A stretch of 64,000 nucleotides of DNA from Candidatus Thiothrix sulfatifontis (GTDB taxonomy: Bacteria > Pseudomonadota > Gammaproteobacteria > Thiotrichales > Thiotrichaceae): contig CP094685.1 of the NCBI GenBank assembly GCA_022828425.1, positions 1,984,001-2,048,000 of the forward strand, in the 5' to 3' direction. Both the position numbers and the translations under genes were made by a program. Below, piece by piece: positions 49,345 through 55,800 of the stretch. Position 1 is the first letter of the stretch. The number at the start of each line of letters is the position of its first letter. The notes under the pieces are model-generated. The model was not told where the DNA came from. It ran no database searches and worked only from the letters and a program-made list of their open reading frames with translations.

Positions 49345-50931
49345 TTAGTGCCTAAAGTGGCGCATTCCGGTGAACACCATCGCCATGCCGTGTTCATTCG
49401 CGGCGGCAATGACTTCTTCATCACGCACGGAACCACCCGGTTGAATCACCGCTTTGATACCTGCGGCGGCGGCGCTGTCGATACCATCGCGGAATGGGAA
49501 GAATGCATCCGACGCCATTACGGAACCCGGCACAACCAGACCCGCGTGTTCCGCTTTGATGCCTGCAATCCGTGCTGAATTGATACGACTCATTTGACCC
49601 GCGCCCACGCCAATCGTCATATTGCCTTTCGCATACACAATTGCGTTGGATTTGACGAATTTAGCAACCTTCCAAGCAAATTGCAGGTCGAGCAACTCGG
49701 CATCCGTTGGTTGGCGCGTAGACATGACTTTCAGCTCATCCAGCAGCGCAATGTCAGCCGTTTGCACCAGCAAGCCACCATTCACCCGTTTGAAGTCCAA
49801 GCGATTGGGAACGTCTTCACCCCACATGTCCACGGTCAATAAGCGCACATTTTTCTTCGCGGCGACCACCGCAACCGCTTCAGGCGAAACCCCTGGTGCG
49901 ATAATGACTTCCACAAACTGACGCTCGACGATGACTTTTGCGGTTTCACCATCCAGCGGTTGGTTGAATGCAATAATGCCGCCGAACGCGGATTCAGGGT
50001 CAGTGCTGTAAGCGCGGTTGTAAGCTTCCAGCAAATTCGCGCCGATGGCAACGCCGCACGGGTTAGCGTGCTTGACGATAACGCAAGCCGGTGCGCCGTC
50101 GAATTGCTTGACGCATTCGAGCGCGGCATCAGTGTCGGCGATATTGTTGTAAGACAATTCCTTGCCTTGAATCTGGACAGCGGTGGCAATGCTGCCTTGT
50201 GGAGCGTTGTATTCCGCGTAAAACGCGCCCGCTTGATGGCTATTTTCACCGTAACGGCAATCTTGCTTTTTCTCGACTTGCAGGCTGAAAGTGCGCGGGA
50301 ATGTCGCGGGTGCTGCATGACTGGCTTCGCCAACCCGTGCGCCGAAATAGTTGGCAATCATGCCGTCGTAACGTGCGGTGTGTTCAAACGCTTTAATCGC
50401 CAAATCAAAACGGGTAGCAGGGGTGATGCAGCCTGCGCTGGCTTCCATTTCCGCCTGAATACGCGCGTAATCGCCGGGTTCCGTGACGATAGTCACGTGT
50501 GCGTGGTTCTTCGCACTGGCGCGTACCATCGTGGGGCCGCCGATGTCGATGTTTTCAACCGCGTCTGCAAAGCTGCAACCGGGTTTGGAAACGGTGGCTT
50601 CAAATGGGTAGAGATTCACCACAATCAGGTCGATACGCCCGATGTTGTGCTCTGCCATGACCGCATCATCTTGTCCGCGACGTGCCAAAATGCCGCCGTG
50701 AATTTTCGGGTGCAGGGTTTTCACGCGCCCATCCATCATTTCCGGGAAGCCGGTGTAGTCGGACACTTCGGTGACGGGTACGCCATTATCCGCCAGCAGC
50801 TTGGCAGTGCCACCCGTGGAGAGTAAATGTACGCCTTGGCTGTGCAGGAACTGGGCAAATTCCAGCACGCCGGATTTGTCGGAAACGCTCAGCAAAGCGC
50901 GGGTGACAGGCAAGTTAGAGGCAGTCGTCAT
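49345..50931 (-). CDS. purH: Bifunctional AICAR transformylase/IMP cyclohydrolase
   Basis: 528 residues, as in E. coli (529). It carries out the last two steps of IMP synthesis. The N-terminal cyclohydrolase has [27 protein letters not shown] and [14 protein letters not shown]. The transformylase domain has the active [11 protein letters not shown], and [12 protein letters not shown] follows. The ATG at 50931 has AGGA about 10 bp upstream; an upstream frame to 50991 is less likely. Next to it on the same strand lies the large heptad-repeat gene. Confidence 0.97.
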
Positions 50932-51006
50932 CGTGTTTGAATCCTGAGGCGAAAAACACAGTATTCTATGCCGTGGGGTGATTTGCTGCAATGCCGTATG
51001 CGTTGG

Positions 51007-53331
51007 TTAAATAATCGCCATTAAACGCAACCCTAAGACAAATACCAGCGCGGCGGCTAAGCCGGTTATTGCACCTTTAATAAACAGGCTTTGGGAGCTT
51101 GCCGCGTATTTGACCACGCTTTTATCCAGCCTGTCGATCTGGCGGTCACGTTGCGCAATAATCAAATCGCGTTGGTGCAGGGATTCATCGCGGTGTTGTA
51201 GCTGTTGCTGGTTTTCTGTCAGGGTATTTTCCAAATGTTGGATGCGTAAGGTGAGTTCCTGTAAGCGTTCATCGCGGCGGCGGATATGCGCTTCTTTCGC
51301 CACAATGGTTTGGTCACGGTCATGCAAGCTGGTGTCGCGTTTGTTGAGTTGCGCGTCGCGGGCTTGCAGTTGCGCATCGCGTTGTGACACGGTGACATCG
51401 CGTTCGTGCAGGCTGGTATCGCGTTTCGCAATGTCGGTATCGCGCTGGTAAATTTGCTGATCACGGGCTTGCAACGCTTCCTCTTTGTGTTGCAGTTGCA
51501 GGTCACGCTGTTCAATTTGGGCATCGCGTTCGGCAACGGTAGCGTCACGCTCCGCCAGCGTTTCTTCGCGTTCGGAGAGGAATTCATCCCGATCTTGCAC
51601 GATTTGGTCGCGCAGTTGCAATTGCACATCGCGTTCGGCAATGCTTTGGTCACGCAAATGCACTTCCAATTGCAGGTTACGAACTTGCTCATCCCGCGCG
51701 GCAATTTCGGTATCGCGAATTTGCAAGCTGCTGTCGCGTTCAGTGAGAAATTCACCCAAATTTTGAATGTGGCGGTCGCGCTCTTGCAGCGAAGTATCGC
51801 GTTGTTGAACGGTTTGGTCGCGTTCGGTCAGTTGGAAATCGCGTTCGCGCACGCTGTCATCACGTTGCTGAATCGCGGCATTGCGCTCAGTCAGCAGCGA
51901 ATCCCGCGCATGAATGGTTTCATCGCGTTCCTGCATTTGCCCGTTGATTTGGGTAATGTGTAAATCGCGTTCCTTCAGGCTGTGATCGCGCTCGCCGATG
52001 GTGACATCGCGGCTTTGTACTTGCGAATCGCGCAATTGCAATTGCTTGTCGCGTTCGCGCAATTGCAAATCTTGCCCGCTGATACGGGTGTCGCGCTCCC
52101 GCAGGGAAATATCGCGTTCTTTGACGCGGCGGTCGCGTTCGGTAATTTGCACATCGCGCTCTTCGACCGTGCGGTCACGGCTGGAGAGGCGGGTGTCACG
52201 GTCGCGTAAATCTTCATCCGCTTTATTGATGCGCTCGTCACGCATCATCAGTTGGCGGTCGCGCTCATTGAGTTGGCTGTCGCGCTCCTGCAAGTGGTCT
52301 TCGAGTTCGCGAATGGTTTGCAGAAAATCCAGCCCTTGCTGGTCACGGCTGCGGATGGCCTCTTCCCGCAAGCGCAATTCATTGTCCCGTTCGGCAACGG
52401 TGCGGTCGCGTTCGCTGAGTTCGCGGTCACGTTGGCTGAGAGTGGTATCGCGCTTTTCGACTTGCTGTTGCTGAATGCCAATGCGTTGATCGCGTTCTTG
52501 CAGCAGCGTGGCTTTTTCTTTGAGCAAGACTTCGCGGCTTTGGATTTGCTGATCACGGTCAGCAATGGTGCGATCCCGCGCTTGCAAATGCTGGTTCGCA
52601 AGGTCGATGTGCGAATCGCGGGCGGCTAATTGGCGATCCCGCTCTGAAATATGGTTATCGCGTTCGCTGAGGTGCTTGTCGCGTTCCTTGAGCATTTTTT
52701 CCTGCTCCAAGGTTTGGCGCGTGCGCTCTTGTAATAAGGCTTCGCGATCCAGCAATTGCTGGTCTTTTTTGCCGATGCTGTCATCGCGGCTTTGCAGCAG
52801 TTTGTCTTTGCTCTGAATCGCTTGGTCAATGCGCGAGAGTGAGCGGTCTTTGTCTTCCAGACTGCGGTCACGCATTTGGATTTGCAGTTCTTTTTCCTGC
52901 AACAGTTTTTCGTAATGCGCAAGGTTTTGTTCAAGGATACTCAGGCGGCTGTCACGGTCACTCAGGATGGCGTCACGTTGTTGTACGGCACGGTCACGGT
53001 TGACGACACCTTCATCACGGCTACGCAGGGCTTTTTCTTTTTCTTCGAGTAATTGGTTTTGTTGGGTGAGCAGCTTTTCTTTTTCACCCAGCAAGCGTGC
53101 TAGGGTTTCCATGCGCTTATCGCGCTCATCAATCCGTGCGTCACGTACCCGAATATGCCCGTCTTTTTCCAGCAATAATCCCGCTATTTCGCGCAGGCGC
53201 TGATCCCGTTCCTGTAAACGCAAGGCTAATTCATCCACGCTGGTTTTCAAGGCTTGCTTATCATTAAGGGTCAGATAAACGTTTGAATCCAGCTTTTTAA
53301 AGATGTCGAGATCCTTTTCTTCCAATTTCAT
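51007..53331 (-). CDS. Giant RD-heptad-repeat protein with C-terminal membrane anchor
   Basis: 774 residues. Residues 37-743 split into 101 heptads with no phase slip. Most follow x-x-[ILV]-x-x-R-D, for example QLAARDS, TIADRDQ, ELSERDR. Residues 1-36 are a short head (MKLEEKDLDIFKKLDSNVYL). Residues about 749-774 are a single hydrophobic helix (FIKGAITGLAAALVFVLGL) ending five residues later, so it is a tail-anchored protein with the long rod in the cytoplasm. Only one heptad position is hydrophobic; the other core position would hold R or D, so this is an unusual coiled coil. I do not know a named family. Possible roles are scaffold, spacer or cytoskeletal fibre. It lies between purH and comEC. 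Confidence 0.9.
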   Translation of the reverse strand: MKLEEKDLDIFKKLDSNVYLTLNDKQALKTSVDELALRLQERDQRLREIAGLLLEKDGHIRVRDARIDERDKRMETLARLLGEKEKLLTQQNQLLEEKEKALRSRDEGVVNRDRAVQQRDAILSDRDSRLSILEQNLAHYEKLLQEKELQIQMRDRSLEDKDRSLSRIDQAIQSKDKLLQSRDDSIGKKDQQLLDREALLQERTRQTLEQEKMLKERDKHLSERDNHISERDRQLAARDSHIDLANQHLQARDRTIADRDQQIQSREVLLKEKATLLQERDQRIGIQQQQVEKRDTTLSQRDRELSERDRTVAERDNELRLREEAIRSRDQQGLDFLQTIRELEDHLQERDSQLNERDRQLMMRDERINKADEDLRDRDTRLSSRDRTVEERDVQITERDRRVKERDISLRERDTRISGQDLQLRERDKQLQLRDSQVQSRDVTIGERDHSLKERDLHITQINGQMQERDETIHARDSLLTERNAAIQQRDDSVRERDFQLTERDQTVQQRDTSLQERDRHIQNLGEFLTERDSSLQIRDTEIAARDEQVRNLQLEVHLRDQSIAERDVQLQLRDQIVQDRDEFLSEREETLAERDATVAERDAQIEQRDLQLQHKEEALQARDQQIYQRDTDIAKRDTSLHERDVTVSQRDAQLQARDAQLNKRDTSLHDRDQTIVAKEAHIRRRDERLQELTLRIQHLENTLTENQQQLQHRDESLHQRDLIIAQRDRQIDRLDKSVVKYAASSQSLFIKGAITGLAAALVFVLGLRLMAII
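51103..53223 (-). repeat. 21-bp periodic coding repeat (101 heptads)
   Basis: The DNA repeats with a 21-bp period, with GCG(T/C)TC or CGCGTT-like words (reverse of GAACGCGA) at regular places. Sequence differs between units, so it is old and under protein-level selection. The periodicity creates long false frames on the other strands. Confidence 0.9.
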
Positions 53332-53444: not shown

Positions 53445-55745
53445 TTACTTTATTAGGTAACGGTGCCAGAGATGCATTTTTGCGGTGCGCCATTCGCGCC
53501 AGTGCAGGGCTGCGGGATTGGCAGGAAAATCGAGCCGCAATTCGCCGGTTTTGGCAGTGTCCAGTAATTTTATGTCATGCGCTTCGTAACGTTGGGTGAC
53601 GCTGGGATGCGGGTGATTGAAGCGGTTACGATAGCCACTGGTAACGATCCCAAGCGCGGGCGCCACCGCTTGTATGAATGCTGGGCTGGACGAGGTTTTA
53701 CTGCCGTGATGCGGTAACAGTAACACTTCTGCCTGTAAAGCAGTGCCCTGCTTGAGTAACCATTTTTCGGCGGGGCGTTCAATATCGGCAGTCAATAACA
53801 CGCTGTGAGCGGCATTTGCTATTTTCAATACACACGAGCGGTTGTTCTCCTTGGTGTCGAGGAAATCCACAGCGGGGTGTAAAACCGTGAAAGTTACGCC
53901 ATCCCACTGCCATGAATGCCCCGCCACGCATAAATTGGGGTGATGATGCGGGAGTATGTCGGTGCTACTGACCAGCAGATTCGTGACGGGTAGGGCGTTC
54001 AGCAATGCGTTAGCGCCACCGCTGTGATCGTTATCCGCATGAGACACGATTAAAGTGTCGACTTGGTGAATGCCTTGCCCGCGCAACCACGGCAACACCA
54101 CCAATTCGCCGGTATCAAAACTGTCCGACACTTTGGGACCTGTATCAAATACCAAGGTATGGTTGGCGGTTTGCACCACGCTTGCCAAGCCTTGCCCCAC
54201 ATCCAGCACGCTGAGGCGAAACGCTCCCGGCGCTATCTTGGGTGGCTGATACAAGATCAGCGGGAGCATTAGCAACCCACCCAGCCAACGCCCCGGTACA
54301 CCACGCGGCAACCACAACAGCATGAATCCTACCAGAGCTAACACTAGCCAAGGCAAGGGAATCAACGGCACGTAGACCGACGACAAGGGCAGGGCGGCGA
54401 GCCATTCCAATACCCACATCAGCCATTCCAGCAATGCGGCGGCAACTGTCCAAATCCACATGGCGGCGGTTTCCCACCAACCGGCAAATACCATGCCCAG
54501 CAATACCAACGGCGTGACCACAAAAGTAACGATGGGAATGGCCAGCAAGTTTGCGATAGGCGAACTGAGTGAAATCATCCCGAAAAAGCCTGCCGCCAGT
54601 GGCAGTGTTCCCAGCGACAACACCAACTGCATCCAGACGACGGATGCTTTCCCCAGTTTACGCTGACGCATTCCCAAAAATGCCAGCAACGCTACCGTCA
54701 AAAACGATAACCAAAAGCCCACTGCCAAACTCGCCAAGGGGTCGAGCAGCAATACCAGCAACAGCGCGATGCTCATGGTGATACTGAACGGCACTTGCCG
54801 CCGCCACACCAAGCCCGCCATCACCACCAGCAACATAATCAGGGTGCGTTGCGTGGGAATATTAAACCCTGCCAGCAATGCATACGCCGTTGCCAATACC
54901 CCACCGGATAATCCAGCCGCCACCCGCAATGGCAACCACAAATACAATGCCGGAAACAAACGCCAAATTCCCCACACCGGCAAAATGCCCAAGCCTGCCA
55001 CCATCGTAATGTGCAAGCCCGAAATCGCCAGTAAATGAATCGTTCCGGTTTGGCGCAACACTTCCCATTGTTGCTGCGGAATGCTGGCGGTATACGCAAT
55101 CGCCAACCCCTGCACCAAGCCAGTCATGCCCGAATCAGGCAGTGCCGCTGCGATTTTTTCCTGCAATTGTTGGCGCAAATAATTCGGTTGCCACCATGCT
55201 GCTGGAGCTAAACGCTGATTATCCGCCGATTCGCGCACGTAGCCGCTGCCACCGATGCGCTGTGAAAACAGCCATTGTTCGTAATCAAAGCCATTCGGAT
55301 TCATGAAACCGTTGGGGCGTTTGCCACGAATCAGCAATTGCCAACGCTCACCCGCTTGCAGTGTGGGTGCATCCTCCGCGTACCAGGCGACGCGCAAACG
55401 TCCTTGATAGGTGGCGCTATCGCTATCAAACAGAAAACTGCTGCCATCTGCCCGCCGTTCGGGTACCTCCGCAATCGCGCCAGTGAGCAGAATATCTTCA
55501 CCCTCCCACGCAGCGGGGAGCCAATCAGCCCTCACGCCAGCGGCTACCCACAATGCATAAACACTGCCTAATAACACGCCAGCCAATAAAATAGCGGTTT
55601 GTCGGTGCCGGTAATGCCATGCCGCAGCAATCAAGCCACTGCCACCAACAACACTTCCCCAAAACAGCGCATCGAACAGCGGTAGGCGCGGCAGTACCCA
55701 TAAGACGAGCGTGCCAATAAAAAAACTCACTGAAAAGGTGCGCAT
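53445..55745 (-). CDS. comEC: DNA internalization protein ComEC/Rec2
   Basis: 766 residues. An N-terminal DUF4131 part, a central Competence domain with many membrane helices (GLAIAYTASIPQQQWEVLRQTGTIHLLAISGLHI), and a C-terminal metallo-beta-lactamase domain (LDVGQGLASVV, SHADNDHSGGANALL, LLPHHGSKTSS). It forms the inner-membrane channel for DNA uptake. The ATG at 55745 is chosen; a TTG lies at 55754. It is divergent from the DUF2062 gene, a conserved order. No pil or other com gene is nearby. Confidence 0.95.
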   Translation of the reverse strand: MRTFSVSFFIGTLVLWVLPRLPLFDALFWGSVVGGSGLIAAAWHYRHRQTAILLAGVLLGSVYALWVAAGVRADWLPAAWEGEDILLTGAIAEVPERRADGSSFLFDSDSATYQGRLRVAWYAEDAPTLQAGERWQLLIRGKRPNGFMNPNGFDYEQWLFSQRIGGSGYVRESADNQRLAPAAWWQPNYLRQQLQEKIAAALPDSGMTGLVQGLAIAYTASIPQQQWEVLRQTGTIHLLAISGLHITMVAGLGILPVWGIWRLFPALYLWLPLRVAAGLSGGVLATAYALLAGFNIPTQRTLIMLLVVMAGLVWRRQVPFSITMSIALLLVLLLDPLASLAVGFWLSFLTVALLAFLGMRQRKLGKASVVWMQLVLSLGTLPLAAGFFGMISLSSPIANLLAIPIVTFVVTPLVLLGMVFAGWWETAAMWIWTVAAALLEWLMWVLEWLAALPLSSVYVPLIPLPWLVLALVGFMLLWLPRGVPGRWLGGLLMLPLILYQPPKIAPGAFRLSVLDVGQGLASVVQTANHTLVFDTGPKVSDSFDTGELVVLPWLRGQGIHQVDTLIVSHADNDHSGGANALLNALPVTNLLVSSTDILPHHHPNLCVAGHSWQWDGVTFTVLHPAVDFLDTKENNRSCVLKIANAAHSVLLTADIERPAEKWLLKQGTALQAEVLLLPHHGSKTSSSPAFIQAVAPALGIVTSGYRNRFNHPHPSVTQRYEAHDIKLLDTAKTGELRLDFPANPAALHWREWRTAKMHLWHRYLIK

Positions 55746-55800
55746 ATTTTGCAAACCATGGATAATGAATGACCTTAATTGTTATTGCTGTTAAAAGTTC

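Follow-up and report, generated by a model that had tools for sequence, protein, structure and literature searches.

A 774-residue heptad rod with a predicted membrane tail in Thiothrix and its relatives: near-constant length and a possible spacer function

The rod gene, its product and its neighbours

The window, a 64,000-nucleotide stretch of the 'Candidatus Thiothrix sulfatifontis' KT genome, carries on its minus strand at 51007..53331 a frame that runs from ATG to TAA and encodes a protein of 774 residues; the plus-strand reading of the same interval contains many stops. The product begins with a head (residues 1-36; 53224..53331, minus strand), in which a short helix at 3-17 and a loop with K13, N17 and L20 are predicted, the rod helix starting at 22. 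The rod itself (residues 37-743; 51103..53223, minus strand) consists of exactly 101 heptads in a single phase and would be ~105 nm long if fully helical. It is followed by a predicted tail anchor (residues 744-774; 51010..51102, minus strand), in which G753 and G757 (GxxxG), F764 and G767 are invariant in 11 sequences. A membrane-like stretch occurs only at the C-terminus: the 19-residue Kyte-Doolittle mean is 2.23 at residues 756-774 and at most 0.04 for stretches starting within the first 720 residues. The chain ends directly after the predicted membrane helix. The original prediction of a 774-residue protein with 101 in-phase heptads (residues 37-743) and a C-terminal membrane helix is thus confirmed, with the gene on the minus strand.

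Within the heptads, position 3 is I, L, V or M in 99 of 101 cases, the exceptions being T207 and G333, while position 6 is mostly Arg and position 7 mostly Asp. Sixty-three of the 101 heptads fit xx[ILV]xxRD exactly, against at most five in any of 1000 composition-preserving shuffles read in their best phase, and the hydrophobic period peaks at 3.50 residues across 707 residues. Positions 6-7 are [RK][DE] in 77/101 heptads, so that the earlier description of "unbroken R-D heptads" holds for the phase, and "mostly R-D" is fair, but the R-D pair itself is not unbroken. Pro, Cys and Trp are absent from the whole 774-residue protein. Since all 101 heptads differ from one another and Tandem Repeats Finder reported a single 2.4-copy patch within the gene, with no tandem array covering the rod, the repeat is old and not the product of a recent DNA expansion. 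Recent internal duplication of heptad blocks was considered and rejected (surface identity of 0.168 at the best lag, compared with a mean shuffled maximum of 0.186).

Directly upstream, on the same strand and 113 nt from the rod gene, lies a comEC-like gene (53445..55754, minus strand), and downstream lies purH (49345..50991, minus strand). The comEC gene is found upstream of the rod gene in seven Thiothrix-genus loci (L021-L027, of which L026 is titled just Gammaproteobacteria) and was not found in the flanks examined of L028-L036, some of which are short; none of L021-L036 showed purH next to the rod gene. In all 12 genomes tested with ComEC (11 rod-less ones and G031), comEC and DUF2062 occur together. 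A competence role for the rod was rejected, because among the loci examined the comEC neighbourhood is confined to the Thiothrix genus and is therefore probably not functional. The genes downstream also vary among rod loci, and taking these two observations together, the rod gene probably works alone.

Matches of the protein to the Pfam and NCBIfam profiles GAGA_bind, RNase_Y_N, Cbp1, FlbB, RNase_Y and SMC were rejected as coiled-coil cross-hits, since they cover partial profiles, mostly in several stretches, and the NCBIfam scores fall below cut-off. Both Pfam matches score above cut-off (RNase_Y_N, 62 bits vs 32; GAGA_bind, 70 bits vs 26.6). For GAGA_bind, the best stretch covers profile positions 30-114 of 284, all seven stretches lie inside the repeat, and the match does not span the whole profile with its C-terminal part. 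RNase Y carries KH and HD domains; the NCBIfam RNase_Y profile gave 34 bits against a cut-off of 454, with matches in several stretches of the rod. In the conserved 36-residue head, the Pfam and NCBIfam searches gave no known domain. The sulfur-globule protein SgpD has a Sec signal peptide and proline-rich repeats according to passages of PMC10386293, and this identity was rejected too, as the rod protein lacks both proline and a hydrophobic stretch at its N-terminus. Of separate note, a family 2 glycosyltransferase of the same genome (PF00535, 109 bits; L066 2405-3799, plus strand; G000 C1 about 1093904-1095298) has a C-terminal stalk of its own, made of tryptophan-containing R-D heptads, and is followed by a HAD-like hydrolase gene; look-alikes of this stalk protein occur in G009 (L067) and G081 (L099).

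Core positions, register and predicted fold

The assignment of core positions decides how the chain could associate. Position 6 is Arg or Lys in 80/101 heptads and hydrophobic in 16 (Leu, Ile, Phe or Tyr, and twice Ala), whereas position 7 is Asp or Glu in 86/101, Leu once, and otherwise charged, polar, Ala or Gly. Both rod ends keep the usual a/d pattern in phase with the repeat, by L35 and L39 on the head side and L735, V739 and Y742 on the tail side. Because it is position 6 and not position 7 that turns hydrophobic, and because of this pattern at the rod ends, we assign a to position 3, d to position 6 and e to position 7. Position a is Ile or Val in 45 of the 101 heptads, residues that suit a dimer there. 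A basic residue at d goes with an acidic residue at e in 77/80 heptads, compared with 9/21 for the remaining ones (Fisher p = 8e-8). In a parallel dimer with knobs-into-holes geometry, Arg at d adjoins e' of the partner chain, and this proximity would explain the R-D pair.

The hydrophobic d positions are conserved. All 11 aligned sequences are hydrophobic at eleven of the 16, and 8 to 10 of the 11 at the other five. Two sequences of the Thiolinea clade and one of Thiofilum (L015, L018 and L019; 47-54% identity) keep 15, 14 and 12 of the 16, and 1, 1 and 7 new ones appear among the other 85 heptads. While a uniform heptad repeat could slip by seven residues, these layers are irregularly placed: when they are shifted by 1-39 heptads, at most 5/16 match at any shift, so they can fix the register. 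With hydrophobic residues at mostly fixed d places, we consider a two-stranded coiled coil plausible for the rod on sequence grounds. In this respect our results depart from the original prediction, which had placed R or D in the core and found a normal two-strand coil not obvious: the a at position 3 is hydrophobic, the d at position 6 holds Arg/Lys at 80/101 places and a hydrophobic residue at 16, and together the hydrophobic a and fixed hydrophobic d make such a coil plausible.

AlphaFold2 modelling of the full chain with an 11-sequence alignment gave nearly all helix, with a mean pLDDT of 72 and a pTM of 0.22; four long helices of 154-190 residues each are separated by low-confidence breaks near 176-187, 349-365 and 556-565. 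Two of these three break sites fall in strongly conserved bands, and they are free of proline. For residues 1-120 with 13 sequences, the model has a mean pLDDT of 89, an unbroken helix at 22-119, mostly above 90, and a weak head helix at 3-17, the first 20 residues averaging ~60. The family profile found no PDB chain at E 0.001, and comparison of residues 1-63 with the listed fold families gave nothing meaningful (Z <=3.6). As a prediction, a ~100-nm rod that ends in a membrane tail and belongs to a filamentous organism is supported.

Distribution, length and selection in the rod family

In a survey of 63 genomes of the order, with presence defined as E below 1e-100, the rod family was found in 26: all 16 of g1 (Thiothrix, with Ca. 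Thiocaldithrix), the single genome of g3 (Thiofilum), eight of nine in g5 (the Thiolinea clade) and one of three in g6 (the MAG G031). None was found in the 34 genomes of four sister genera (0 of 6, 12, 7 and 9 in g2, g4, g7 and g8), and the family is lineage-restricted within the genomes searched. The g1 count includes Ca. Thiothrix singaporensis SSD2 (G005; L027, C1 1630042-1632333), in which the rod frame is split into several pieces; since comEC of this genome is split as well, sequencing error is likely. The g5 genome G078 has a paralogue and no rod match, and G020, G028, G063 and G071 gave weak partial matches (E 4e-8 to 2.5e-4). Named homologous loci include those of Thiothrix caldifontis, T. 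fructosivorans, T. lacustris, Thiothrix MAGs, Thiolinea disciformis, T. eikelboomii and Thiofilum flexile. The head profile matched 27 of the 63 genomes of the order; among 369 genomes of the class, which include three of the matching order genomes, it found those three and one marginal 14-residue match. Thiothrix, Thiolinea and Thiofilum are grouped as the Thiothrix morphotype in passages of PMC11355018 and PMC10532065. Judging by the genera listed in passages of the latter (PMC10532065), g2, g4, g6, g7 and g8 should include Leucothrix and Cocleimonas.

The original prediction had called for a search for homologues and their repeat number, and would have been refuted by homologues in which the rod is not conserved; instead, the rod turned out to be conserved and nearly locked in length. 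To allow for start codons that lie one to a few residues apart, we counted lengths from the KLD motif that the homologues share, and grouped near-identical copies; G005 (broken frame), G083 (cut by a contig end), G081 (other C-terminus) and G031 (from g6) were left out. The length is 774 residues in 15 of the 19 distinct complete homologues and 767, 764, 760 and 717 in the others. In the 18 complete rods with a head, all indels fall at residues 39-114 (window 52990-53217), adjoining the head, and in the 717-residue rod (G080) all deletions fall at residues 8-114. Beyond residue 114, not one indel occurs among the 19 complete homologues, down to 47% identity, and the truncated G083 has none within its 323 residues. 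In this region next to the head, the surface of heptads 8-14 is poorly conserved as well.

Some members depart from this pattern. The Thiolinea-clade MAG G080 (L095, C152) has a divergent, shortened N-terminus without the normal head and a normal membrane tail, and a separate short frame on its contig C25 matches the head profile. In another Thiolinea-clade MAG, G081 (L094, C421), a 972-residue open frame has no indel up to residue ~755 and then a different C-terminal sequence that resembles a globular domain, possibly an assembly error or a fusion. G031 (L020, L096) has insertions of 42 and 7 residues inside the rod and the same kind of tail; its rod, ~1018 residues as estimated over two contigs, represents another length setting. 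Given G031 and G080, neither the 100 nm nor the head is universal.

A soluble paralogue family provides a control for the length. Its 18 complete members, from g1 and g5 and, in 17 cases, from rod-bearing genomes (L059, L060 and L102 were dropped as broken, start-less or cut), share a related head and an R-D-rich rod with the membrane family, and differ from it in lacking the membrane tail (best Kyte-Doolittle mean <=0.67) and in their variable length of 373-911 residues; an example is the 571-residue protein at L050 2906-4621 (minus strand). K13, N17 and L20 are invariant when the heads of 15 sequences, drawn from both families, are aligned. The head is mostly missing from the paralogues in L048 and L049 and is not clearly recognisable in L062. 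In the genome that holds the window (G000), the paralogue has 373 residues and no conserved head motif (L048 3290-4411, minus strand; C1 about 1231789-1232910); that of G001 likewise has 373 residues and no head motif, and G009 has the same open-frame length (381). The coefficient of variation of length is 0.23 in the paralogue family, compared with 0.005 in the first 18 membrane rods and ~0.017 when the 717-residue rod is included. Therefore, these genera allow an R-D rod to change its length, a freedom of which the membrane rod makes very little use. Coiled coils in general vary 3.6-fold less in length than other regions, according to passages of PMC5082667, so the length lock alone is no proof of a ruler.

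The rod frame is under purifying selection: nine pairs have a finite dS, and their dN/dS is 0.024-0.109. In three of them dS is >2, which makes the ratios rough, and a tenth pair is saturated. At the surface positions f, g, b and c, dN/dS is 0.025 and 0.035 in two genus-level pairs, the third being saturated, and this constraint exceeds what a bare spacer would need. For the same genome pairs, identity is higher in the rod than in the neighbouring ComEC (for example, 91 vs 80% and 74 vs 67%), whereas LolC and LolD next door are conserved equally or more (lolC 95% and lolD 91% where the rod has 91%). Surface conservation is banded with a period of 19 heptads, or ~20 nm (P = 0.017 against AR(1) surrogates, 11 sequences); the other sets gave P of 0.009 (18 sequences), 0.024 (11 Thiothrix sequences) and 0.067 (10 cross-genus sequences), and the five Thiolinea-clade sequences alone gave no significant period (P 0.64). 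These bands are a lead for docking sites and suggestive only. Net, positive and negative charge show no supra-heptad period when compared with shuffles within heptad positions (P 1.0, 0.85 and 0.57, respectively).

A possible fixed-length spacer and its alternatives

The near-constant length of a rod in which up to about half of the residues have changed suggests a molecular spacer of ~100 nm. The reading we prefer, to which we give about an even chance, is that the protein forms a tail-anchored, parallel, in-register homodimer that reaches ~100 nm into the cytoplasm and works as a fixed-length spacer or tether. In such a scheme, the C-terminal tail would hold the rod in the inner membrane, and the hydrophobic a residues, together with the sparse hydrophobic d residues, would form the seam of the dimer. 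In most heptads, the Arg at d could reach the Asp at e' on the partner chain and form a salt bridge. The irregular, largely fixed hydrophobic d layers and the GxxxG membrane helix may together set the register of an otherwise slippery repeat, and the N-terminal helix-loop-helix head with K13, N17 and L20 would be presented at the far end, where it may bind a putative partner or cargo. Two features of known spacers are found in the rod, namely a coil length kept despite sequence divergence, with the longer g6 form as the exception, and membrane attachment at one end, as judged by hydropathy only. A more specific version seems unlikely to us: a cytoplasmic ruler, in which dimeric 100-nm rods on the inner membrane of Thiothrix-type filaments, with quasi-regular docking sites every ~20 nm (19 heptads) and the head at the tip, would mark out a fixed layer close to the membrane, or hold the nucleoid or a soluble rod partner at a set distance.

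The main rival to the spacer is a membrane-anchored cytoskeletal element, in which rods would associate laterally or through their ends, in the manner of crescentin or FilP, to build filaments or a cortical mesh and stiffen the cells of the filament. The strong conservation of the rod surface and its bands ~19 heptads (~20 nm) apart would suit such assembly, as would the occurrence of the rod mainly in genera of the Thiothrix morphotype, as that group is outlined in passages of PMC11355018. However, the supra-heptad charge period expected for staggered filament packing is absent (P 0.57 to 1.0), a single anchor at the chain end would limit free assembly, and the Thiolinea clade taken by itself gives no significant band period. 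We thus regard this rival as somewhat unlikely, and of the two roles first proposed, "cytoskeletal or spacing", spacing fits better, because the charges lack a supra-heptad period and the length scarcely varies. The proteins could also differ from a dimer in strand number: a salt-bridged fibre or a higher-order bundle with a charged core, which the original prediction had put forward, as a trimer or tetramer would accommodate the basic d residues at 80/101 places, and WbdD, a coiled-coil membrane ruler, is described in passages of PMC5082667 as three-stranded and parallel. The places at which position 6 becomes hydrophobic are mostly fixed, though, position 7 is Leu just once in 101, and the Ile/Val content of a (45/101) suits two strands, so that this arrangement appears quite improbable.

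It is also conceivable, with a still lower probability, that the chain folds back into a shorter, EzrA- or spectrin-like bundle and the rod measures just 25-50 nm. The four long helices of the full-chain model and its low-confidence breaks, two of the three in conserved bands, would agree with a folded rod, but the pTM of that model is just 0.22, Pro is absent from the protein, and the break sites do not interrupt the heptad phase, either in the window protein or in those homologues that lack indels there. Moreover, one hydrophobic position per heptad offers little for an intrachain bundle. Least probable of all, in our view, is a sulfur-inclusion protein, functionally like SgpD, that would organise the Thiothrix sulfur globules. 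Thiothrix, Thiolinea and Thiofilum, all of them rod-bearing, share rosettes and sulfur inclusions in passages of PMC10532065, but sulfur globules generally lie in the periplasm and SgpD carries a Sec signal peptide according to passages of PMC10386293, and the rod protein has no N-terminal hydrophobic stretch. Nor does sulfur oxidation clearly track the rod: dsrA is above cut-off in 21/26 rod-bearing and 22/37 rod-less genomes of the order (p = 0.10).

A fixed-length spacer function, if real, would make the membrane-anchored rod unusually long as a bacterial ruler, and the bacterial setting of cytoplasmic distances of ~100 nm would become open to study by removing heptads. An R(d)-D(e) heptad whose hydrophobic d layers are mostly fixed may represent a natural design for long rods in register, which could be used in protein design. 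The family also marks the lineage of the Thiothrix morphotype, a group linked to sludge bulking in passages of PMC11355018. Among the papers listed in searches on Thiothrix coiled coils or cytoskeleton, none was on the rod protein, nor was any among those listed for ultrastructure, the bacterial cytoskeleton, ruler coils and Arg core positions.

Among known systems, crescentin and FilP resemble the rod as long bacterial coiled-coil rods; proteins of this type form filaments without a C-terminal anchor, and neither is among the Pfam and NCBIfam matches of the rod. To our knowledge, no golgin has a uniform R-D heptad. Giantin and other golgins are nevertheless like the rod in having a very long coil, a C-terminal transmembrane segment and a length kept better than the sequence (passages of PMC5082667), and unlike it in being eukaryotic, located at the Golgi and much longer. 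WbdD, the ruler of the E. coli O9a O-antigen, is a three-stranded parallel coil with a C-terminal membrane segment that provides a spacing of ~20 nm according to the same passages (PMC5082667). Like WbdD, the rod is a bacterial coiled coil with a C-terminal membrane segment, and it may likewise set a distance from the inner membrane; WbdD, in contrast, is a trimer with methyltransferase and kinase domains, and the rod is about five times longer, with no enzyme domain found. ROCK2, a eukaryotic Rho kinase, has a parallel coiled coil of ~107 nm that is conserved in length and divergent in sequence, and it binds the membrane at its C-terminal end (passages of PMC5082667). The rod shares with it a coil of ~100 nm, a length conserved over sequence and a C-terminal membrane attachment, the last of these as predicted. 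ROCK2 has a kinase domain, whereas the rod has just a 36-residue head and a predicted transmembrane helix, and the likeness to ROCK2, WbdD or giantin would be one of function. Should the ruler reading prove true, the rod would be a bacterial counterpart of the ROCK2, tropomyosin or golgin spacers.
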